Below the pieces are notes generated by a model, which made no database searches, had not been told where the DNA came from, and saw nothing but the letters and a program-made list of their open reading frames with translations. From an uncultured Planctomycetaceae bacterium (GTDB taxonomy: Bacteria; Planctomycetota; Planctomycetia; Planctomycetales; Planctomycetaceae), in the NCBI GenBank assembly GCA_903858815.1, contig CAIOKE010000363.1, positions 1 through 64,000 of the forward strand: DNA of 64,000 nt, written 5' to 3'. The position numbers and the translations under genes are program-made. Positions 2,693 to 48,559 of the stretch are shown here, piece after piece; position 1 is the stretch's first letter; the number at the start of each line of letters is the position of its first letter.

Positions 2693-4990
2693 ATGGGCAG
2701 GCCTGGAACAGCGAGTTGGATTCTGTTGCTGCTGGGCGTTTTGCTGGCGTCTGAGCGGGCCGTGCTGGCTGCGGGTGCTGCGGAGTCAGCGTTGAGTGGG
2801 GTGCCGTCATTTCGGCATGAGGTGATGGCTGTTCTGTCGCGAGCGGGCTGCAGTCTGGGGACCTGTCACGGGAATCAGAACGGCAAGGGTGGTTTGCGTC
2901 TGTCGCTGCGGGGTCAGGACCCTGAAGCGGACTACATCACCCTGACTCGATCTCTTGGTGCGAGGCGAGTGAATGTGCAGCAGCCGGATGACAGTCTGCT
3001 GCTGCAGAAGCCGCTGATGCAGGTACCGCACGAGGGTGGTCGGCGTTTTGTGCGGGATTCGCTGGAGTATCGAGTGCTGCGGGACTGGATTGCTGCGGGG
3101 TTGCCGCGGGAATCGGGTTCTGTGGAATCCGAATTGCATCTGGTTCGACTGCTGGTTGATCCCTCCAATTCGACTCTGAGCGGTGCGCAGCGGACGGTGC
3201 AGTTGAGGGCGACTGCGGAATTTTCGGATGGGTCGCGGCGGGTGGTGAATGATCTGGCGGTGTTTGAATCGTCTCATCCGGGTGTGGCGGTCAGTGCGAC
3301 GGGAGAAGTGAATTTCGGAGACGTGAGTGGTGTGCGTCAGACGACGGTGACGGTGCGGTATCTGGATCAGCAGCAACCGGCTCGAGTGCAGTATTTTCCG
3401 GGCCGTGCGGATTTTCAGTTTGAGGCTCCTGCGGCGGTCAATGCGATCGACGTGGCGGTGTTTGGTCAGTTGCAGCGACTGCAGGTGAATCCGGTCTCGT
3501 TGTGCAGTGATGATGTCTTTGTGCGGCGTCTGTATCTGGATCTGACAGGTCAATTGCCGACTCGCCAGCAGGCGGAGTCATTTCTGGCATCGCGTGCGGT
3601 CGACCGCCGGTCGCAGCTGATTGATCAGTTGCTGTCGGCGGATGAGTTTGTGGACTTTCAGACTCTGCGGTGGGCTGATCTGCTGCGAGTTGAGGACAAG
3701 ACACTGGACACCAAGGGTGTCGCGGTTTTTCATCAGTGGATTCGAGAGAGTGTGCGATCGGATCAGCCGTTGAATGCGTTTGCGGCGGCGCTGATTGCTG
3801 CTCGGGGCAGCACCTATACCGAGCCGCCGACGAATTTCTATCGTGCGTTGAGAACACCCGAGGAGCGTTCGGAGTCAGCGGCGCAGGTTTTTCTGGGTGT
3901 GCGTCTGCAGTGTGCGCGGTGTCATAATCACCCTTTCGATCGCTGGACGCAGGACGATTATTACGGCTGGACGAATTTCTTTGCGCGGGTGGATTACAAG
4001 ATTCTGGAGAACCGACGGCGGGACATCAACGACAAGCATGAGTTTGATGGAGAGCAGTTGGTTTTCATGAAGTCTGTTGGTGATGTCAGGAATCCTCGTA
4101 CTGGTCAGCGTGCGGGACTGCGGTTTCCGGGGTCCGGGGACCAGCAGTTGGGTGCTGCTGGTGAGGAGGGAGTCGATCGTCTGCAGCTGCTGGCGGACTG
4201 GCTGGCCTCTGAGCAGAACGAGCGATTTGTGGCGACGCAGGCCAACCGGATCTGGCAGCAGTTGATGGGGCAGGGTGTGGTGGATCCGATTGACGATTTT
4301 CGGGGAACGAATCCGCCATCGAATCCTGAGCTGCTGGAGGTGCTGGTGCGGGAATTTCGGGCTGGTGGAATGCGGGTCCGTCCGCTGATGCGAATGATCC
4401 TGAATTCGGCAGTCTGGCAGTTGTCATCGGAGGCCGGCGGGGCTGTGGAAATTGCGGACGCCGAGATTGCTCCGCTGTTTGCTCGAACAGTACCGCGGCG
4501 GTTGACGGCTGAGCAGCTGCTGGATGCGATAGCGATGGTGGTGGAGGCGGAGCCGAGGTTTGGTGGTCATCCGGCCGGAGTGCGAGCGGTGCAGCTGGCT
4601 GGTGTGCGAAGCGGGGGTCATCGTTACAGTCGTCCGGAAACGGGTGATCGTTTTCTGGCCTTGTTTGGTAAGCCGGGACGAATTCAGACGTGTGAGTGTG
4701 AGCGTTTGAGTGAGACGACTCTGGCGCAGACGATGGAGCTGGTGAGTGGGCCGCTGGTAGCGGAGTTACTGTCGCGGTCAGAGAATCGCATCAGTCGGTC
4801 GCTGCGGTCGGGCGAGGCGACCGAGCGATTTGTGGAGGATCTGTGGTGGCGGGCATTGAGTCGTGCGCCGAGTGTGTCTGAGACGGAAGCGATGGTCCGG
4901 CATGTGGAGGCTCAGGCGGACCGTCGGCGGGGTCTGGAGGACGTGGTTTGGGCGATCCTGAATTCGAACGAGTTTCTGCTGCGGCGCTGA
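2693..4990 (+). CDS. PSCyt1-like + bacterial Ig-like + DUF1549 (PSCyt2) + DUF1553 (PSD1) protein
   Basis: CSLGTCHG motif near N-terminus, Ig-like segment, LQCARCHNHPFDRWTQDDYYGWTNFFARV, C-terminal VVWAILNSNEFLLRR. Confidence 0.9.
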   Translation: MGRPGTASWILLLLGVLLASERAVLAAGAAESALSGVPSFRHEVMAVLSRAGCSLGTCHGNQNGKGGLRLSLRGQDPEADYITLTRSLGARRVNVQQPDDSLLLQKPLMQVPHEGGRRFVRDSLEYRVLRDWIAAGLPRESGSVESELHLVRLLVDPSNSTLSGAQRTVQLRATAEFSDGSRRVVNDLAVFESSHPGVAVSATGEVNFGDVSGVRQTTVTVRYLDQQQPARVQYFPGRADFQFEAPAAVNAIDVAVFGQLQRLQVNPVSLCSDDVFVRRLYLDLTGQLPTRQQAESFLASRAVDRRSQLIDQLLSADEFVDFQTLRWADLLRVEDKTLDTKGVAVFHQWIRESVRSDQPLNAFAAALIAARGSTYTEPPTNFYRALRTPEERSESAAQVFLGVRLQCARCHNHPFDRWTQDDYYGWTNFFARVDYKILENRRRDINDKHEFDGEQLVFMKSVGDVRNPRTGQRAGLRFPGSGDQQLGAAGEEGVDRLQLLADWLASEQNERFVATQANRIWQQLMGQGVVDPIDDFRGTNPPSNPELLEVLVREFRAGGMRVRPLMRMILNSAVWQLSSEAGGAVEIADAEIAPLFARTVPRRLTAEQLLDAIAMVVEAEPRFGGHPAGVRAVQLAGVRSGGHRYSRPETGDRFLALFGKPGRIQTCECERLSETTLAQTMELVSGPLVAELLSRSENRISRSLRSGEATERFVEDLWWRALSRAPSVSETEAMVRHVEAQADRRRGLEDVVWAILNSNEFLLRR

Positions 4991-5000
4991 GGGAACCGAG

Positions 5001-6386
5001 ATGAGTGGTGTTTTGTCGAGAATGCGTCAGTTTCAGCGGCGGGACCTGCTGCGAGTGGGTGGTCCTGGTCTGCTGGGTCTGACATTGCCGCGCTGGCTGC
5101 ATGCAGATGACCAGCCAGCAACCGGTCTGCGGGCTCGGGCGAAGTCTGTGATTTTTCTGTTTCAGTGGGGTGGCCCCAGTCATGTTGATACGTTTGACAT
5201 GAAGCTGCAGGCGCCGGTGGGTTATCGGTCATTATTCAGTCCGATCGCCAGTTCGGTGCCTGGTCTGCCGGTGTGTGAGCATCTGCCGGAGACGGCGAAA
5301 GTGCTGCATCATTTTGCGCAGATCCGAACAGTGCACCATACGATGAATAATCACAATTCGGCGGGCTATACAGCGTTGACGGGATATGAGCCTCCGATTG
5401 ATGATCAGCGTCTGCGGGAGTCTCTTGATCTGTTTCCGGGGTATGGTTCGGTGGTGGCCGCGACGGCACCGGGGTCCAGTGATCTGCCTGCTGCGGTGGC
5501 GTTTCCGTATCAGATTTCTGATGGCAGTACGACTCCGGGGCAGCGTGCCAGTTTTCTGGGTAAGCAGCATGATCCGCTGTTCTTTCAGGACGATCCGAAC
5601 GATCCGGGGTTTCGATTGAGTCAATTGAGTCTGCCGGCGGGCGTTTCGCTGGATCGTCTGGGCAGTCGTCGTGGTCTGCAGCAGCTGATCAATTCGCAGT
5701 CACGGCAGCTGGATCAGTCTGCGGCGGCGACCGGGCTGGATGCGTATTATCGGCGTTCGCTGGAGCTGTTGAATTCGGACCGTGTGCGGCAGGCGTTTGA
5801 TGTGTCTGGTGAGCCAGAGGTGCTGCGTGAGGCGTATGGTCGGACGACATACGGGCAGAGCTGTCTGCTGGCGCGGCGATTGGTGGAGCATGGAGTGAAA
5901 TTTGTGACGGTCTACTTTGCTCCCAGTATCGGCGGGCGCAGCAAGACGGATGGTGGCTGGGATACTCATGGTTTTGACAATACTCGAATGTATGAAATTC
6001 TGCCGGCGCGGCATCTGCCGCTGACGGATCAGACATTGCCGACACTGATTCGAGATCTGAGTGAGCGGGGTCTGCTGGACGAGACTCTGGTGGTGTGGAT
6101 GGGTGAGTTTGGTCGAACTCCGAAGATCAACGACAGCATCAGTCGGGATCACTGGCCGAAGTGTTATACGGTGCTGATGGCTGGCGGCGGGATTCGGGGT
6201 GGAGCGGTCTATGGTTCTTCGGATCGCTATGGTGGGGTTCCGGATCGTGATCCGGTATCAATTGGTGATCTGGCGGCGACGATGTATTACGCATTGGGAA
6301 TCGATCATACCCGGGAAGTTCATGACAACCTGAATCGTCCGTTGCCGCTGGCCCGAGGTCGCGCGGTGACGGAGATTTTCGGCTGA
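5001..6386 (+). CDS. DUF1501 protein with twin-arginine-like N-terminus
   Basis: QRRDLLRVGGPGLLGLTLPRWLHA leader; [50 protein letters not shown]. Confidence 0.9.
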   Translation: MSGVLSRMRQFQRRDLLRVGGPGLLGLTLPRWLHADDQPATGLRARAKSVIFLFQWGGPSHVDTFDMKLQAPVGYRSLFSPIASSVPGLPVCEHLPETAKVLHHFAQIRTVHHTMNNHNSAGYTALTGYEPPIDDQRLRESLDLFPGYGSVVAATAPGSSDLPAAVAFPYQISDGSTTPGQRASFLGKQHDPLFFQDDPNDPGFRLSQLSLPAGVSLDRLGSRRGLQQLINSQSRQLDQSAAATGLDAYYRRSLELLNSDRVRQAFDVSGEPEVLREAYGRTTYGQSCLLARRLVEHGVKFVTVYFAPSIGGRSKTDGGWDTHGFDNTRMYEILPARHLPLTDQTLPTLIRDLSERGLLDETLVVWMGEFGRTPKINDSISRDHWPKCYTVLMAGGGIRGGAVYGSSDRYGGVPDRDPVSIGDLAATMYYALGIDHTREVHDNLNRPLPLARGRAVTEIFG

Positions 6387-6401
6387 CTGTGGCGGACTGT
6401 A

Positions 6402-9400
6402 ATGAGGATGACTGAGATGAGCGTGCAGATCTGTTGGCTGGTATTGTTGTGGGCTGCTGGGGGTGCCGTGGGGCAAGCAGCGTCAGGTCTGCAGTCTGAT
6501 TCCTCTGCGGTGGTGGAGGAGTCAGCAGATGAGGTCGTCGCGGGCTGGCAATTTGATGCCGTGGCTGATGGTTTTTCGAGTTCGCGGGGTGGTTTGCAGC
6601 TGGTGGACGCGAAGGGAACTCCGGGATTGCAGACCGCCGGTCCTCGACCGCCTGAGTTTCCCGGATTTTCGGCGGAGAATCGCGGTTTGCAGCTGGATGG
6701 GCGGTCATGGCTGCAGTTTGCGGATGATGTGCAGGGGCGTTTGAGTTTCGAGTCGGGGTCTGTGATCAGTCTGGAGGCGTGGGTACAGACGTCATCGCTT
6801 AAGGATGGTCAGCAGGTGTATCTGATTGGCAAGGGGCGAACAGGTCGAGCGGGCATGAAGAAGGAGAATCAGAGCTGGGCTCTGCGTCTGCGTGGGATGG
6901 GTGGAACAGCGCGGGTGAGTTTCCTGTTTCGATCGGCCGATATTCCGGCGGGCACGGATGCTGGCGGGCAGGCAACGGCGGCGGTTGCTGGTGAACTGCA
7001 TCGCTGGAATTCGAATGCGGGATTTGCCGTGGATGGTGAATGGCATCACGTGGCATTGTCGTTCCGCTTTGGCAGCTCCGAGGCTCCGGTGGCGTGGATT
7101 GATGGCGAGCCGACAGATGGTGCGTGGGACATGGGTGGCAAGACCAGTTCGCGGGGGCCTTATGTGGATGATGATCAGATCTGGATTGGCTCTTCGATGG
7201 GTGGCAACCCGGACAGCAGTTTTCAGGGTGTGCTGGATGGCGTGTTGGTTCATCGGCGAATGCTGACGGATGCAGATATTGCTGCTCGGTGGCAGACGAC
7301 GCGGAAGGCGGAGTCGTTGCCTGAGCTGCTGGCCACTGAGCTGACTCGCGGGGTGGTGACGGTGGATGTGCGTGAGCATGTGAAGCAGTCTGATCCGTGG
7401 AATCGTGAGCGGACACGGATCACGATGCGATGGGAGCAGCCGGTCATGGCACTAACGCGGTTGCCGCGGAAGTATGTGGCGGGTGGGCTGATAGGTGATC
7501 GCAGCAATCCCTGTGTGGTGCGGCTGCGCACGATTGTCAGTACTGCGGAGCAGACGACGCAGGTGCTGCTGCGGGCGCGCAGTGCGACGCGGCTGCTGAT
7601 TGATGGTCAGGAAGTGGCGAAGCTGAATCTGCTGCCTTATGCATCTGACGGGCATCAGGAAGTGCCGGTTCCTCCGGAGCCCTTGTATTCGCAGATGCAT
7701 CCTGTGCAGGCGGGTGATCAGGAGGTAACAGCGGGGGTTGTGCTGACAGCGGGCGAACATCTGATTGAGCTGGAGACGCTTGCTGGCGGAAAGAACATGC
7801 GAGTGGAGCTGGGGGAGACTCTGGTTGCCCTCGGGTCAGCCCAAACGGGATTCAGGGTGCTGTCGGGTGCGGGCGAGGGTGATTCGCTGGATGAGGCGGG
7901 ATGGCGTCAGCTGCAGCGGGAGCAGCAGGAGTTTCTGGTGCAGATTGAGTCAGCGGAACGCGGGCGACAGGGGGCAGCGGAGTCGGAGTACTGGAGTCAG
8001 CGACATGCGGTGGTACGTGGCCTGATTGGAGCCGATGCGGCAGAGATTGCACCGGCGGACGTGGATCGACTGCTGTTGAAGACGTTGTCCGAAGAGGGAT
8101 TGCAGCCGCGACCGGTGGTGGATGATCTGACATTTCTGCGGCGTCTGGCGCTGACGACGGTGGGAGTGATTCCGACGCCCGAGGAGCGGGCGTGGTTTAT
8201 GGCGCAGCCTTTGAGTCGTCGGCGAGCCGAGGCCGTGGATCGTTATCTGGCGGATTCTCGATGGGCTGATCACTGGGTGTCTTACTGGCAGGATGTATTG
8301 GCTGAAAATCCGGGGATTCTGAAGCCGGAACTGAATAATACGGGTCCGTTTCGCTGGTGGATTTATGAGTCGTTTCTGGACAACAGGCCTACGGATCGCT
8401 TTGCGACAGAGCTGGTGATGATGCGTGGCAGTCGCCTCGGCGGTGGTCCGGCGGGTTTTGCGATGGCGTCGCAGAATGATGTGCCACTGGCCGAGCGTTC
8501 AATCGTACTGGGGGCGGCGTTTGGGGCACGGAATCTGAAGTGTGCTCGCTGTCATGATTCGCCGGTGAATGAAGTTTCGCAGAAGCAGTTGTTTGAGATG
8601 GCGGCGCTGTTGAACCGGGGGTCGATCAGCATTCCGGCGACCAGCAGTGTACCGAAGGGTCCTGATGGTGAGCGGAACAGTCGAGTGACGGTCAGTATCG
8701 AGCCTGGCACGGTTGTGCCGCCGGCATGGACGCTTGGTCGGGCGTCGGAACCGGGGGATCTGCTGTGGCAGCAGTTGCTGCGAAGTCCGGGGGATTCGCG
8801 TGAGCAGCTGGCACTGCATCTGACGCATCCTGTGACGTCGGACTTTGCGGAGGTGATGGTGAATCGCCTGTGGTCGCAGTTGTTTGGTCAGGGACTGTTG
8901 AGGGATCAGGATGACTGGGCGGGCAGCCGCGCAGTGCATGCGGAGTTACTGGAACTGCTGGGGCGTCAGCACATGTCTGTGGGATATGATCTGAAGTCGA
9001 CGGCCAGACTGCTGCTGCTGACGGAAGCGTGGCAGCGCGAAGCGGCACCAGAGGATGCTCCGGTGGCACGATTCTTCGGTGCGGTGACACTGCGACGCAT
9101 GACGGCTGAGCAACTGGTGGATTCGCTGTATGCGGCGGTGGGCAAGGGGTTTGATGCGGAGTTGCTGACGCTGGATCCGGAGGGGCGTCGTCCGGATGAT
9201 TCGTTTTTGAATCTGGGTCAGCCGCAGCGCGCGTGGCAGTTATGTTCGCTGTCGAATGAGCGTGATCGTCCGGCGCTGGCGTTGCCGGTGGCTCAGAGTC
9301 TGGTGGATCTGCTGTCGGTTTTTGGCTGGCGGGATTCTCGTCCGCATGGGTTATCCGTGCGTGATGATCAGGCGACGGTTCTGCAGCCACTGACACTGGC

Positions 9401-9809
9401 GAATGGCAATGCGGGTCACAGGCTGGTGCAGTTCAGTGACAATTCGGCGGCCACTGAGCTGGCAGTTACGGCGAGCAGTCCGGAGCAGCTGGTGACGGAG
9501 CTGTTCCGTCGAATTCTGACGCGGGATCCGCAGCCTGAGGAACTGGAGCAGATGGCGGGTGAGCTGCGGGAGGGTTTTGGGGACCGCATGGTGTCGGGAG
9601 CTGAGAGGAGACCGCCGGTCGCTCGTCGAAACTCTGTCAGCTGGTCCAATCATCTCAACAAAGAGGCGACGAAGCAGAAGCAGCAGCAGGAGGAATCTGC
9701 GCGTGAGGGTGATCCACCGACGCTGCGGCTGCAGGAGAGCTGGAGACTGGCGGCAGAGGATGTGGTGTGGGTGCTGCTGAATACTCCGGAGTTTGCCTTT
9801 GTGCCGTAG
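6402..9809 (+). CDS. LamG/concanavalin-like + DUF1549/DUF1553 protein
   Basis: 1135 aa; LamG-like SLEAWVQTSSL...DGEWHHVALSF; LKCARCHDSPVNEVSQKQLFEMAALL; C-terminal VVWVLLNTPEFAFVP. Confidence 0.85.
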   Translation: MRMTEMSVQICWLVLLWAAGGAVGQAASGLQSDSSAVVEESADEVVAGWQFDAVADGFSSSRGGLQLVDAKGTPGLQTAGPRPPEFPGFSAENRGLQLDGRSWLQFADDVQGRLSFESGSVISLEAWVQTSSLKDGQQVYLIGKGRTGRAGMKKENQSWALRLRGMGGTARVSFLFRSADIPAGTDAGGQATAAVAGELHRWNSNAGFAVDGEWHHVALSFRFGSSEAPVAWIDGEPTDGAWDMGGKTSSRGPYVDDDQIWIGSSMGGNPDSSFQGVLDGVLVHRRMLTDADIAARWQTTRKAESLPELLATELTRGVVTVDVREHVKQSDPWNRERTRITMRWEQPVMALTRLPRKYVAGGLIGDRSNPCVVRLRTIVSTAEQTTQVLLRARSATRLLIDGQEVAKLNLLPYASDGHQEVPVPPEPLYSQMHPVQAGDQEVTAGVVLTAGEHLIELETLAGGKNMRVELGETLVALGSAQTGFRVLSGAGEGDSLDEAGWRQLQREQQEFLVQIESAERGRQGAAESEYWSQRHAVVRGLIGADAAEIAPADVDRLLLKTLSEEGLQPRPVVDDLTFLRRLALTTVGVIPTPEERAWFMAQPLSRRRAEAVDRYLADSRWADHWVSYWQDVLAENPGILKPELNNTGPFRWWIYESFLDNRPTDRFATELVMMRGSRLGGGPAGFAMASQNDVPLAERSIVLGAAFGARNLKCARCHDSPVNEVSQKQLFEMAALLNRGSISIPATSSVPKGPDGERNSRVTVSIEPGTVVPPAWTLGRASEPGDLLWQQLLRSPGDSREQLALHLTHPVTSDFAEVMVNRLWSQLFGQGLLRDQDDWAGSRAVHAELLELLGRQHMSVGYDLKSTARLLLLTEAWQREAAPEDAPVARFFGAVTLRRMTAEQLVDSLYAAVGKGFDAELLTLDPEGRRPDDSFLNLGQPQRAWQLCSLSNERDRPALALPVAQSLVDLLSVFGWRDSRPHGLSVRDDQATVLQPLTLANGNAGHRLVQFSDNSAATELAVTASSPEQLVTELFRRILTRDPQPEELEQMAGELREGFGDRMVSGAERRPPVARRNSVSWSNHLNKEATKQKQQQEESAREGDPPTLRLQESWRLAAEDVVWVLLNTPEFAFVP

Positions 9810-42165: not shown

Positions 42166-42617
42166 GTTTCCGGTCTCGGTTGCGTGGGTGGCGGCCAACC
42201 CCAGCGATGCAGGATGCTCCATTCGAGCATGTACATGCGATCAGTTTAAGGGGGTTCGGCAGGAGATACATTCAGATTTGGGCGAACATTTTCCGGAGTG
42301 CGTGCGTAAAGCGTGTTTTGATCGCACTTGAAGCCGTTTGCGTGGGTGCCTTTCGGGGTATCTTGCGGTATTTTCGGGCAGTTTTCCGTTCGGTATCTCG
42401 TCGGTATTTTCGCGTGTTCTGCTGGTTTCCCTGCGTCAGTAGCGGGGAAAAGTGGGATTTTTTGGCAAAATTCGGGTGGATTCTGGCGAAGATTTGTTCA
42501 ACGGCTGATGTATTTATGGTTAGTCTGGACGTTTTTGCTGTGCCGGTTTGTTGTGCAGCGGTTCAAAACCGGGGCTAAGACCTGGCAATTGCAGTTGTCG
42601 CCGTGTTTGGAGTTGTC

Positions 42618-44378
42618 ATGAGATTCGCTGGTCTGAAATCAATTGATCTGCTGCACAGCATTGTAACCCGGGACGGTGTTCTCAGTGGTTGTGGGATTGT
42701 GGTTTCGGCGGTGCGGCGTGTTGTTTTGTCAGCGGTCGCGGTGATTCTGGTGGTTGCTCCGGGATCTCTGATTGCGGACGAGCCTGCAGACAAGGCAGCA
42801 AAGCCGTCGGCTTCCAGCAGTGAAGCAGCAGCGGCAGCGGGTGAGGTTTCTCTGGGCGAATTCATTGACCAGCAGATTCGTCAGGGCTGGGCTGACAACG
42901 AGATCGAGGCTTCCCCGCTGGCTGCTGACGAGGAGTGGGTTCGTCGTGTGTATCTGGATCTGGTGGGTCGGATTCCGACGTTGACAGAGGCTCGTGAGTT
43001 CATGAACGACAAGAATCCTCGCAAGCGAGCCATGCTTGTGGATGCTCTGCTTGAGCACGAGGACTACGTGCGGAACTTCACGACAATCTGGACGAACAAT
43101 TCGATCGGCCGGGGTGCTCCGCAGCGTGTCAGTCGCACGGGTATGGAAAAGTTCTACCGCGAGGCGTTTGCGAAGAACCGTCCATGGGATGAAATTGTGG
43201 TGGACATTCTGACGGCATCCGGCCACTACGAAGAGAACGGTGCGGTCAACTACATTCTGGCTCAGATGCAGATGCCGGACGACGCTGTTCAGCTCACTGC
43301 CATGACGACTCGACTGTTTCTTGGACTGCAGGTCCAGTGCACTCAGTGTCACAATCATCCTTTCAACAAGTGGCAGCAGGACCAGTTCTGGGAGTTCAAC
43401 AGCTTCTTCCGGCAGGTCGACAAGCGTGACCATCGCAAGCTGGACCCGAAGACGGGTCGTCAGGTGGACGACTATTCTGAAGTGGTTTGGAAAGAGTTCA
43501 CGGGTCCTGTGTACTACGAGAAGCGCAGTGGCATGATGCAGGTGGCATTCCCGCGTTTCCAGGGCCATGAAGTGGATCCTGGCGTTGGTGTTGATCGACG
43601 AGCTGAACTGGCGAAGCTGATCACGGAACCGGCGGGTGACGAGCCGGCACAGCTGGCCCAGGCGATGGTGAACCGCACATGGAGTCACTTCTTCGGCTAC
43701 GGGTTTACTCGACCTGTCGACGACATGGGTCCGCACAATCCGGCCAGCCACCCGGAATTGCTGAAACGACTGGCTCGCGAGTTTGTGGCAGCCAACTATG
43801 ACGTGAAGCAGTTGGTTCGCTGGATCGTTTCGACCGAAGCTTATCAGCTCAGCAGTCAGTACAGTGAGAAGAATCGGATCGATGATCCGGCGGCAGGTGA
43901 AATGCCGCTGTTCAGCCACATGTATCTGAAATCGATGCAGGCTGAGCAGCTCTATGATTCACTGATTGTCGCCAGCAATGCTCATCAGTCGGGTAACGGC
44001 AGCTGGAGTGCTCAGGAAGAGCAGCGCCGTCGCTGGATGCAGCAGTTTGTGGTGGCTTTTGACAATGACGAAAACGACGAGTCGACGACATTCAATGGCA
44101 CGATTCCTCAGGCGCTGATGATGATGAACAGCGAACTGATCGATAAGGCCTGCAGTGTTGAGCGGGGCAGCTTTCTGTTTGAGCAGATGAGCAGCCCCGG
44201 CGCAGAGACTCAGAAAATCAACGACCTGTATCTCGCCGCTCTCACTCGAAAACCAACTCGAGCTGAGATGACGAAGATGCAGAAGGCGCTGGCGCGTTAC
44301 GGTAACGCAAAGCTGAATGGATATCAGGACATGTTCTGGGCACTTTTGAATTCCAACGAGTTTATTTTTATCCACTGA
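42618..44378 (+). CDS. DUF1549 (PSCyt2) + DUF1553 (PSD1) protein
   Basis: [75 protein letters not shown]. Confidence 0.93.
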
Positions 44379-44416: not shown

Positions 44417-45721
44417 TTGATGTCACTTTGGAACAACTACGGAATGAATCGTCGCCATTTCATGCAGCACATGGCGACAGCCGCAGCAACGATCCCGGCG
44501 ATGAATTTCCTGTCGCATGTGCAGGCGAATGCTGACGTGCTGAAAAGCAGTCAGAAGTCCTGTATTCTGATGTGGATGGGTGGTGGTCCGCCGACAATCG
44601 ATATCTGGGACCTGAAGCCGGGTTCGAAGAACGGTGGCGAGTTCAAGCCGATTGATACGGCGGCGTCCGGAGTACAGATTTCCGAGCACATGCCGGAAAC
44701 AGCGAAGGTCTTCGGGGATCTGTCGCTGGTTCGCTCCATGAGCACTCGGGAAGCCGACCATGGTCGTGGTCGCTACTACATGCAGACTTCCTACGTGCCC
44801 AACCCAACGGTCGTACACCCGACCTTCGGTTCGGTTGTCAGCTATGAAATTGGCCGCAACCGCAAGGCTCTTGAGATCCCCGCCTTCGTCTCTGTGGATG
44901 GCGGTGCTGGTCAGGCTGGCTTCCTTGGCATGACACATGCTCCGTTTGTTGTGGACAACACGGGACGTATTCGGAATGAGCCTTCAGAAGAAAGCCGTCA
45001 GCGACTGGGTGCTCGCCTGACGATGCTGGACGAAATTGAAGCCGGTTTCATGAACTCCCGTCGTGGCGAGCTGCCCAAGGCTCATCAGGACGTCTACAAG
45101 AATGCTGTCAACCTGATGACATCTCGTCAGATGGTGGCATTCGACGTAGCGAAGTCAGATCCGACGCTGGGTCTGGAAGCTGAATCCGATGCAACTCGGG
45201 ATGCCTATGGTCGCAACGGGTTCGGTCAGGGCCTGTTAATGGCTCGCCGTCTGGTGCAGGTTGGCGTGCCGTTTGTGGAAGTGAACATGGGTGGCTGGGA
45301 CCTGCATGCCGGCGTGTTTGATACTCTGAAAAACCAGCGTCTGCCGCAGCTTGACAAAGGGATTTCAGCGATCACAGCCGACCTGAAGGCTCGTGGTATG
45401 CTGGACAATACCGTTCTGGTGTGGATGGGTGAATTCGGACGTACTCCACGCATCAACCAGGACGTCGGTCGCGATCACTGGGCGGCATCATGGAGCGTGA
45501 TGCTGGGTGGTGGCGGTCTGAAGAACGGCCAGGCGGTTGGTGCGACTGACAAAGACGGTCTGCAGATCGCTGACGGCAGCAAGGCATACCTGCCTGGCGA
45601 CATCTGGGCCACGGTTGCTCATGCCATGGGCATTCCGATCAACACGGTGCACACATCGAAGCGTGGCCGTCCGATGAAGCTGGCCAACGGTGGTACTCCG
45701 ATCCAGGAACTGATTGGCTGA
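44417..45721 (+). CDS. DUF1501 protein with Tat-like leader
   Basis: [76 protein letters not shown]. Confidence 0.93.
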
Positions 45722-45830: not shown

Positions 45831-46397
45831 ATGAGTGACGCAGCAGCCGAAAATGAGGCGTCGTCTGGGTCGGTTTCAGGCGGACCGAATGAAGAATTCG
45901 TCCGTTTGTTTACCACGGTCCAGCGGTCGCTGTATGTCAGCATTCTGCCTATGGTGCACACACCGGCGGACGCCGAAGAAGTGCTGCAGGAGACGAACGT
46001 GGTGATTCTGAGCAAGTGGGCTCAGTTTCGTCCGGGCACCAATTTTCTGGCGTGGGCCCGCGCGATTGCTCGTCTTGAAGTCCTGCGTTTTCGTCGTCGC
46101 AGTTTTCATCGGGTGCAGTTGCTGGATGATGATGTGATTCATTTGATCGCTGAGAGGCTGGAAGCGGAACAGGTCAACCTCGAAGAACACCGAGAGGCGT
46201 TGGTGCACTGCGTGGGAAAACTTCGTCAGCAGGACCAGGATCTGATACGTCGGCGATACTCGCCCGGAGCCAACGGCGATCGTGTGGCGGGGGATCTTGG
46301 TCGTCCAGCCAATTCAGTCTATCAGTCACTCGGGCGTATACGTCGGATGTTGGTGGAGTGTGTACGTCGGCGGTTGGCGGAAGGGGGTGCCACATGA
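45831..46397 (+). CDS. ECF-type RNA polymerase sigma factor
   Basis: NEEFVRLFTTVQRSLYVSILPMVHTPADAEEVLQETNVVILSKWAQFRPGTNFLAWARAIARLEVLRFRRR. Confidence 0.92.
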   Translation: MSDAAAENEASSGSVSGGPNEEFVRLFTTVQRSLYVSILPMVHTPADAEEVLQETNVVILSKWAQFRPGTNFLAWARAIARLEVLRFRRRSFHRVQLLDDDVIHLIAERLEAEQVNLEEHREALVHCVGKLRQQDQDLIRRRYSPGANGDRVAGDLGRPANSVYQSLGRIRRMLVECVRRRLAEGGAT

Positions 46398-48559
46398 CAG
46401 CGTCGGGAATGCAGTCAGACGCAGTTGCGCCTGAATCCGAAGAGCTGCTGCGGCTTGTGAATCTCTGGTGCGAAGGCGAACTGGGTCAGGAGCAGTTTGA
46501 GCGGATGCAGCATCTGCTGCGGTCTGACGCGTCACTGCTGTCCCTGTTCGTCCGATTTATGCACGTCCATGCCGGTCTCGTCTGGGATGCCGGCCGAATC
46601 CTTGTGGACCCTGACGAGAAGGTTGGTCTGGCAACTGCGGCTGTGGCCTGCGTGTCTGATCCGGACCTGTTATTTGTGGCACCTGAGACTGTTGGTCGGC
46701 AGCACCGGCGGTCGTGGGTACTGGCAGCGGGTATGGCCTGCTCGCTCGTACTGGCCGGCGTGGTGGGCTGGCTGGCTGGTCGGCAGCCGGAGTCAGTACC
46801 TGTCGTAGCCCAGGTGGCAGCTGAGCAGTCAGCCGGTGCGGCTTTGCCGACGCAGCAAGTAGCGTCCAGCGGTGCGGTCGTGGGGAACAGTGCGGTCAGC
46901 GGGGAACTGGTTCGCAGTGAGCGTGCCCCGTTGCAATTGAACGGATTGGCTCCTGCGAAGTCGCCGGCAGTAGCCGTCGAGCCGACGTCCGTTGCCGATG
47001 TCGCTGTGCAGCAGCGATCGGTTTTGGATGCCACCGTGATTGCTCAGATTGACCAACTGCTGGAACGCAGTTGGTCTGAAAATGGAATTGAGCCTGCTGC
47101 CGCTGCCAGTGACTACGAGTGGGTCCGGCGGACTCATCTGACTCTGACCGGCAGAATCTCAACGGAGCAGGAGACAGCTCAGTTTGTGCAGTCCGCAGAT
47201 GCTCTGAAGCGACAGAAACTGGTCAGCAGCCTGGCGGCGGATCCGGCCACAGCCGAGAATCTGGCTGAGACATGGACGCATCTGCTGATCGGTCGCAGTA
47301 ATGCGCGAAAGGTGGATCAGGATTCCTTATGGAGTTTTCTGCGTGAGCAGTTCGGTGACAATCGACCGTGGATGGAGACGGTAGGTCGTCTGATTTCGGC
47401 TGAGGGGCGCAGTGATCGTCAGGGTGAAACCAACTTTCTGCTTGCCCATCTCAATGACCAGGCAACTCCGGCAACCGCCGTAACGGCGCGGTTGTTTCTG
47501 GGGCGACAGGTCCATTGTACTCAGTGTCACGATCATCCATTTGTGCGTGAGCGTCGGCAGGACGAGTTCTGGGCGCTGAATGCCTTTTTCAAGCAGGCCG
47601 TGCGAGAGCCGATTGGGAAATCGGATGCAATGTCTGCGACGGTCTGGTCACTGCATGACGCTGGTGGCGAAAGCATGGCGTTTTATGAAAACCTGCGCGG
47701 GCAGCAGAAGGCAGTCCTTCCGGAATTTGACGGGCAGGTAGTTGATGCAACAGGTTCCCGACGGGCCGCGCTGGCAAAACTGCTGGCAGAAGATCAGCAA
47801 CTGCAGGTATCCCGCGCGATGGTCAATCGCGTGTGGGCCATGTTTTTCGGGTATGGCTTTACCAGTCCGATTGACGACATCGGCCCGCACAATCCGGCCA
47901 GTCATCCTGAGCTGTTTGATTACCTGACGAAGGCCTTTGCTGACTCCGGTTATGATCTCCGGCGGCTGATGACCTGGATCGCGATGTCGCGAGCATTCAG
48001 CCTGTCCAGTGAGCAGTCTGAGAAGCTTGCGACAGCAGATGATCCCCAGGAAGGTGGCATGCCCTTATTCGCTCGCATCTACCCGCGTCCGATGGGGCCT
48101 GAGCAGGTTTATGATTCGCTGCGGACCGCTCTGACGTCACTGACTGGTGACGGGCGTAAGGCGACTCAGAGTGGCAGCATTCGACATCGTCGTGCGTGGG
48201 TCGAGCAGTTTGTGCGTGCGTGGGGTACGGATGACAATGAGGAGTCTCTGGTCTTCGGCAGCGATATTTCCCAGGCTCTGTTGATGATGAACGATCGGGA
48301 TCTGGAACAGGCAATTCCTCGTGTGGCTGAGACATTAGTCACCGCAGGGGCTGGTGAAGGAGCGGTGGCCTCAGCTTCACTTCGGCATCTCGCTCTGGGA
48401 ACTCTGAACCGCGAGCCGACGGAACAGGAAGAGCGAGTGTTTCGCAACCGTTACCGCTCATTGGTCCGCAGTATGCCACCGCAGGAGGCGATGAAGACGG
48501 CGGCAGAAGACATGTTGTGGGCTTATCTGAACAGCAGCGAGTTTGTGTCGGTGCACTGA
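46394..48559 (+). CDS. Anti-sigma-like N-terminus + TM + DUF1549 (PSCyt2) / DUF1553 (PSD1) fusion
   Basis: ATGA overlap with sigma gene; EELLRLVNLWCEGELGQEQFERMQHLLRSDASLLSLFVRFMHVHAGLVW; TM SWVLAAGMACSLVLAGVVGWLAG; VHCTQCHDHPF. Confidence 0.85.
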   Translation: MTASGMQSDAVAPESEELLRLVNLWCEGELGQEQFERMQHLLRSDASLLSLFVRFMHVHAGLVWDAGRILVDPDEKVGLATAAVACVSDPDLLFVAPETVGRQHRRSWVLAAGMACSLVLAGVVGWLAGRQPESVPVVAQVAAEQSAGAALPTQQVASSGAVVGNSAVSGELVRSERAPLQLNGLAPAKSPAVAVEPTSVADVAVQQRSVLDATVIAQIDQLLERSWSENGIEPAAAASDYEWVRRTHLTLTGRISTEQETAQFVQSADALKRQKLVSSLAADPATAENLAETWTHLLIGRSNARKVDQDSLWSFLREQFGDNRPWMETVGRLISAEGRSDRQGETNFLLAHLNDQATPATAVTARLFLGRQVHCTQCHDHPFVRERRQDEFWALNAFFKQAVREPIGKSDAMSATVWSLHDAGGESMAFYENLRGQQKAVLPEFDGQVVDATGSRRAALAKLLAEDQQLQVSRAMVNRVWAMFFGYGFTSPIDDIGPHNPASHPELFDYLTKAFADSGYDLRRLMTWIAMSRAFSLSSEQSEKLATADDPQEGGMPLFARIYPRPMGPEQVYDSLRTALTSLTGDGRKATQSGSIRHRRAWVEQFVRAWGTDDNEESLVFGSDISQALLMMNDRDLEQAIPRVAETLVTAGAGEGAVASASLRHLALGTLNREPTEQEERVFRNRYRSLVRSMPPQEAMKTAAEDMLWAYLNSSEFVSVH

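Follow-up and report, generated by a model that had tools for sequence, protein, structure and literature searches.

Class I anti-sigma factors such as RseA/MucA and RsiW consist of an N-terminal helical anti-sigma-type domain, a single transmembrane (TM) helix, and an exported sensor part, and they are encoded in an operon with an ECF sigma factor. In planctomycetes, sigma factors resembling the family TIGR02989 are paired with partner proteins that carry FecR and LamG or FecR and WD40 domains, likewise with one TM helix, and the two genes are adjacent or overlapping. Planctomycetes also commonly carry gene pairs encoding a PSCyt2-PSD1 protein and a DUF1501 protein, which, where seen in other families, mostly come without a sigma/anti-sigma pair. 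PSCyt2-PSD1 and DUF1501 are among the most amplified families of unknown function in planctomycetes, and we know of no function for either. An ECF sigma factor and a PSCyt2-PSD1 gene have already been connected in Rhodopirellula baltica, where heat, cold, and salt induce the sigma factor RB10049 (PMC2754498). According to the same paper, Studholme et al. (2004) suggested that this factor regulates RB10051, a protein with PSD1 and PSC2 domains. The sigma/PSCyt2-PSD1 neighbourhood is therefore not new as such. The passage of PMC2754498 on these genes presents them as a regulator and its target and states no anti-sigma fusion, and our literature search retrieved no paper naming the anti-sigma fusion, the four-gene operon, or the two origins described below, although the ECF classification literature may hold prior notice of the fusion.

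We analysed a 64,000-nucleotide stretch of DNA (the window: contig CAIOKE010000363.1, positions 1 to 64,000, of an uncultured Planctomycetaceae bacterium, assembly GCA_903858815.1). The original prediction for this window concerned an ECF sigma factor gene (here S) translationally coupled to a gene (here F) for a membrane anti-sigma protein fused to a PSCyt2-PSD1 module. We found that these two genes form the tail of a four-gene operon, A-B-S-F, which begins at position 42603 and did not figure in that prediction. Its features are as follows:

42486..42513, + strand: ECF-like promoter motif GCGAAGA-N16-TGTAT (GCGAAGATTTGTTCAACGGCTGATGTAT), 90 nt before the listed start of A
42603..44378, + strand: gene A, predicted exported PSCyt2-PSD1 protein of 591 aa (Pfam PSCyt2 and PSD1)
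44417..45721, + strand: gene B, DUF1501 protein (Pfam DUF1501, E 1.3e-93) of 434 aa if counted from the listed TTG, an uncertain start, carrying a Tat-type RRHFM signal
45831..46397, + strand: gene S, ECF sigma factor of family TIGR02989, 188 aa
46394..46397, + strand: ATGA overlap of the S stop and the F start
46394..48559, + strand: gene F, 721 aa, with a predicted anti-sigma domain, TM helix, disordered linker, and PSCyt2-PSD1 module
46430..46654, + strand: four-helix domain resembling class I anti-sigma domains but lacking zinc ligands, residues 13-87 of F (AlphaFold2 [AF2], Foldseek, and hhalign)
46718..46777, + strand: TM helix, residues 109-128 of F (full AF2 model; hydropathy and positive-inside rule in orthologs)
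46790..47005, + strand: disordered, predicted exported linker, residues 133-204 of F (pLDDT <50)
47045..47599, + strand: PSCyt2 (DUF1549) domain, residues 218-402 of F (Pfam E 2.5e-32, 113 bits)
47516..47530, + strand: CTQCH motif, residues 375-379 of F
47759..48445, + strand: PSD1 (DUF1553) domain, residues 456-684 of F (Pfam E 1.7e-31, 109.9 bits)

The product of S scores 137.2 bits against TIGR02989 (Sig-70_gvs1), above the cut-off of 124.55 and over model positions 1-158, which places it in that family. The layout that had been read from the letters of F, with N-terminal helices, one TM helix, a DUF1549/DUF1553 module, and a CTQCH motif, was borne out throughout, as was the ATGA overlap with S.

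To our question of how the operon is distributed, gene B provided the anchor; conservation within the operon is highest for this gene (63-98% identity in the alignment of orthologs). Scanning named genomes with the B alignment yielded 504 relatives; we retained the best 80 loci, which are named as Planctomycetaceae, Fuerstiella, Gimesia, Schlesneria, and Planctopirus hydrillae, along with some less specific or doubtful names. The order A-B-S-F is maintained in the wider loci of many genera of Planctomycetaceae. S and F lie downstream of B in 67 of the 80 loci, and most of the remaining loci stop too soon past B. In 47 of these 67, as in the window, the start of F precedes the final base of the sigma stop codon by exactly 3 nt, a count in which overlaps are favoured since ortholog starts were picked as the codon nearest to the sigma stop. 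The recurrence of S followed by F at DUF1501-anchored loci, together with this shared overlap, argues against a chance pairing. Of the 123 Planctomycetaceae genomes covered by a search across the class, at least 95 contain F in full length (94 full-length matches listed, starting at model positions 1-8, plus one more). The prevalence of the fusion, on which the original prediction had been silent, can therefore be stated: the S-F operon is conserved family-wide, and the fusion also occurs independently in other families.

Some loci depart from this arrangement. Six of them (L133, L170, L173, L179, L180, and L194) have B, most with A, and no adjoining S-F, so S-F is not obligatory for the A-B pair. 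At locus L153 (8856-10952), which is probably identical with L098, an in-frame stop (TAG in genome G023) divides the N-terminal part of F from its PSCyt2-PSD1 module, reflecting either a split gene or a sequence error. Longer variants with a weaker match to F, 898 and 817 aa in length, are found in Planctopirus hydrillae (L184:9403-12096), where a gap of 147 nt separates the variant from the sigma gene, and at L174:4751-7201.

The proposal that the N-terminus of F is anti-sigma-like drew no support from existing domain models, as the Pfam and NCBIfam anti-sigma models gave no real match to the N-terminus of F or to 53 ortholog N-termini, and the lone E. coli RseA sequence gave nothing when compared by hhalign. 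Support came instead from profile comparison. Beside other TIGR02989-like sigma factors of the same family, the FecR proteins with LamG or WD40 domains begin with an N-terminus homologous to that of F followed by a TM helix, and hhalign matched the N-terminus of F to the N-termini of these FecR/LamG-type partners with a probability of 99.2% (E 2e-19). The partner N-termini in turn matched a zf-HC2 anti-sigma profile, for which we used 20 zf-HC2 anti-sigma-type proteins from the phylum, at E 4e-6. Compared directly to this profile, the N-terminus of F scored 24.9 (P 6e-4) in a gapless alignment of 46 columns that sets CEGEL of F opposite LDGEL, while the controls reached a maximum of 15.0 in 150 column-permuted comparisons and 8.3 when reversed. 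These profile alignments indicate that the N-terminus of F is homologous to those of FecR/LamG-type sigma partners and, through them, to zf-HC2 anti-sigma domains.

Structural predictions point in the same direction. The AF2 model of residues 1-130 of F places four helices (13-26, 32-44, 46-70, and 73-87) ahead of the TM helix, with pLDDT >90 over approximately residues 11-60. When this model was searched against 350,542 PDB chains with Foldseek, the plausible matches of highest probability were to the MucA:AlgU complex 8z6g (probability 0.69-0.72), and the same search also listed 6in7 (MucA) and 5wuq (RsiW, from the RsiW:SigW complex). A complete lack of similarity to anti-sigma folds, which would have counted against the original prediction, was thus not observed, cytoplasmic MucA and RsiW being the nearest of the plausible matches; as their E-values of 0.6-4 are not significant and the search had no other helical domain as a control, we take this as supporting evidence rather than proof. 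The zinc motif Hx3Cx2C of the ZAS subgroup is absent from residues 13-87 of F and is not conserved in the alignments.

The topology of F is also that of a class I anti-sigma factor. In the full-length AF2 model (mean pLDDT 79, pTM 0.71) the C-terminal domains are confident. The TM helix is present in all 67 F orthologs, and the flanking charges predict an N-in/C-out orientation in 65 of them, giving F a single TM helix with a cytoplasmic N-terminus, encoded by a gene adjacent to and coupled with that of an ECF sigma factor. F differs from RseA/MucA and RsiW in having no zinc ligands, a very remote sequence, and a large exported PSCyt2-PSD1 module, and we identified no counterpart of an RseB-like partner, a role that B or A might play. 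F most likely has anti-sigma activity toward S, and this step of our interpretation is firmer than the feedback step discussed below.

The FecR connection also raises the possibility of F being a FecR-like dual regulator, whose N-terminus would be needed to activate S after signal-driven cleavage and would not be a plain inhibitor. The closest homologs of the N-terminus of F do sit on FecR-domain proteins paired with TIGR02989-like sigmas, and the first 59 aa of E. coli FecR are indispensable for sigma activity (PMC7406223). However, when the FecR domain (PF04773) was sought in the exported part of F with Pfam, only PSCyt2 and PSD1 were found; the FecR-type partners, in contrast, export FecR with or without LamG or WD40, and the examples we saw do not lie behind an A-B pair of this subfamily. 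An inhibitor and an activator are inseparable by sequence alone. We regard dual regulation as rather unlikely.

In an anti-sigma protein of this kind, the exported part would be the sensor. Both Pfam domains in the exported part of F score above the gathering threshold, making F a member of the PSCyt2-PSD1 family, and its CTQCH motif has the CxxCH form of c-type cytochromes, with both cysteines and the histidine invariant in 53 aligned F orthologs. The original prediction had accordingly suggested a possibly heme-binding sensor, a reading in which heme attached at the exported motif, or its redox state, would set the activity of S. The invariance of the motif, the predicted export of the domain to where c-type heme is attached, and the naming of the domain family as cytochrome-like (PMC5615132) are all consistent with this. 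But CxxCH is found equally in A and in the proteins of other families, and remote paralogs have it as CxQCH or CARCH; a motif shared by almost the entire PSCyt2-PSD1 family is not a sensing feature. In addition, a Foldseek search of the full-length F model against the PDB matched no cytochrome or other fold despite the confidently modelled C-terminal part, and a PDB sequence search with F and B retrieved no relatives. Heme sensing by F is not supported beyond the presence of the motif, and we consider it improbable; what stands of the original prediction is the pairing of an ECF sigma factor with a membrane anti-sigma protein bearing an exported PSCyt2-PSD1 module. The stretch AHLNNxAxPATA preceding CTQCH was considered as a signature gained by F and rejected, since the A-type proteins of other families have similar residues there, and it looks ancestral.

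The window's own genome contains about 100 PSCyt2-PSD1-type match segments. Within it, the exported part of F has its closest paralog in A of the same operon, which is 40% identical to residues 211-721 of F, compared to 33% for the next in the genome. A tree computed from 71 PSCyt2-PSD1 modules unites those of F in a single clade (support 100/98), whose sister group (99/96) is formed by the A modules from the same family. The tree indicates that the exported module of F is a duplicate of A, one copy of which then came to carry the TM helix and N-terminal domain. F and A have 55 common positions conserved at ≥97%, including CxxCH, so F is not a decayed copy and could be active and not only a sensor.

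Sigma genes with TM-PSCyt2-PSD1 proteins occur in other families of the class as well (L185-L191), with a DUF1501 gene directly 3' in L185 and L191. The modules of these fusions group with the A-type proteins of their own families, and a single origin of all fusions was rejected when they were constrained to one clade (p-AU 3e-14). Their N-termini have a different motif, LLDxxLEExLGGxxPPDLTxxIL, to which Pfam assigned nothing convincing in the N-terminal region, and which is possibly a different sigma-binding or anti-sigma element. Five of their sigma factors were scanned and scored 81-99 bits to TIGR02989, below the cut-off. The fused architecture thus has at least two origins, with different N-termini, and such recurrence argues for a functional tie between the exported PSCyt2-PSD1 module and the ECF sigma factor. 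RB10049/RB10051, which resembles S-F in that an ECF sigma factor is proposed to regulate a PSCyt2-PSD1 gene, may be an instance of the independent fusion of other families.

F might also be simply a PSCyt2-PSD1 protein anchored in the membrane and regulated as a target of S, with helices at its N-terminus that are a mere cytoplasmic tail binding no sigma factor. This would fit the retention by F of the family core shared with A and the reading of RB10049 and RB10051 as sigma and target in the passage cited above, but seems very improbable to us in view of an N-terminus that is homologous to those of the FecR-type partners and connected to anti-sigma domains, the translational overlap of S and F, and an architecture that arose twice with different N-termini.

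We next consider what S might transcribe. The motif upstream of A in the window has counterparts among the A orthologs: the form RCGAASA-N14-18-TGT precedes A in 19 of 63 orthologs, where 0.7 would be expected from shuffled sequences, and a relaxed form in 33 of 63 (2.5 expected), counts that are partly fitted given that the consensus was derived from these same sequences. About half of the A orthologs are without the motif. A dyad search of the gap between B and S found no repeated promoter motif. S may recognise the promoter upstream of A, the two being linked only by position. We also considered a genome-wide regulon based on this motif and rejected it, as 25 matches in the window's own genome versus 12 for a backwards control is not selective.

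Taken as a whole, the explanation we favour, and consider probable, is that S and F are an ECF sigma factor and its single-pass anti-sigma factor, with an exported copy of A sensing the state of A and B in an autogenous feedback loop. The cytoplasmic N-terminal domain of F, of the zinc-less class I anti-sigma type, would hold S inactive, and the exported PSCyt2-PSD1 domain would serve as the input. That a membrane protein carries a duplicate of an exported protein from the same operon suggests that the cell monitors the exported system with that copy. A and F would each partner B, and F may sense free B, assembly, substrate, or redox state. Upon a signal, F would change or be cleaved in its disordered linker, releasing S, and the released S would transcribe the operon from the ECF-like promoter upstream of A. 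In this picture, gene order, fusion, coupling, topology, the homology of the N-terminus, the duplication from A, and the promoter motif are computational results, and anti-sigma activity, export, the partnership with B, the sensed state, cleavage, and autoregulation by S are proposals built upon them. The feedback step itself is a tentative proposal. We are similarly cautious about the more general idea of an exported PSCyt2-PSD1/DUF1501 system being monitored by a duplicated subunit that was fused at least twice, after separate duplications, via a single TM helix to different sigma-controlling domains and that drives autogenous expression, which is conceivable but falls short of being likely.

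The operon ties an A-B pair to a dedicated sigma/anti-sigma switch that was reinvented in other families, and in doing so offers a transcription read-out. In a tractable planctomycete, such a read-out could be used to test the ligand, partner, or redox state of the module.

Two further loci of the same genome are worth recording. The only other TIGR02989 sigma factor above the cut-off in this genome (L104:5940-7510, on contig C176) overlaps by 4 nt with the gene for a 347-aa protein whose N-terminus is anti-sigma-like and which also has a TM segment, with an exported part to which Pfam matched nothing. Within the window itself, a second cluster of the same protein families lies at positions 2693-9809 on the + strand and encodes a PSCyt2-PSD1 protein (2693-4990), a DUF1501 protein (5001-6386), and a LamG-PSCyt2-PSD1 protein (6402-9809).
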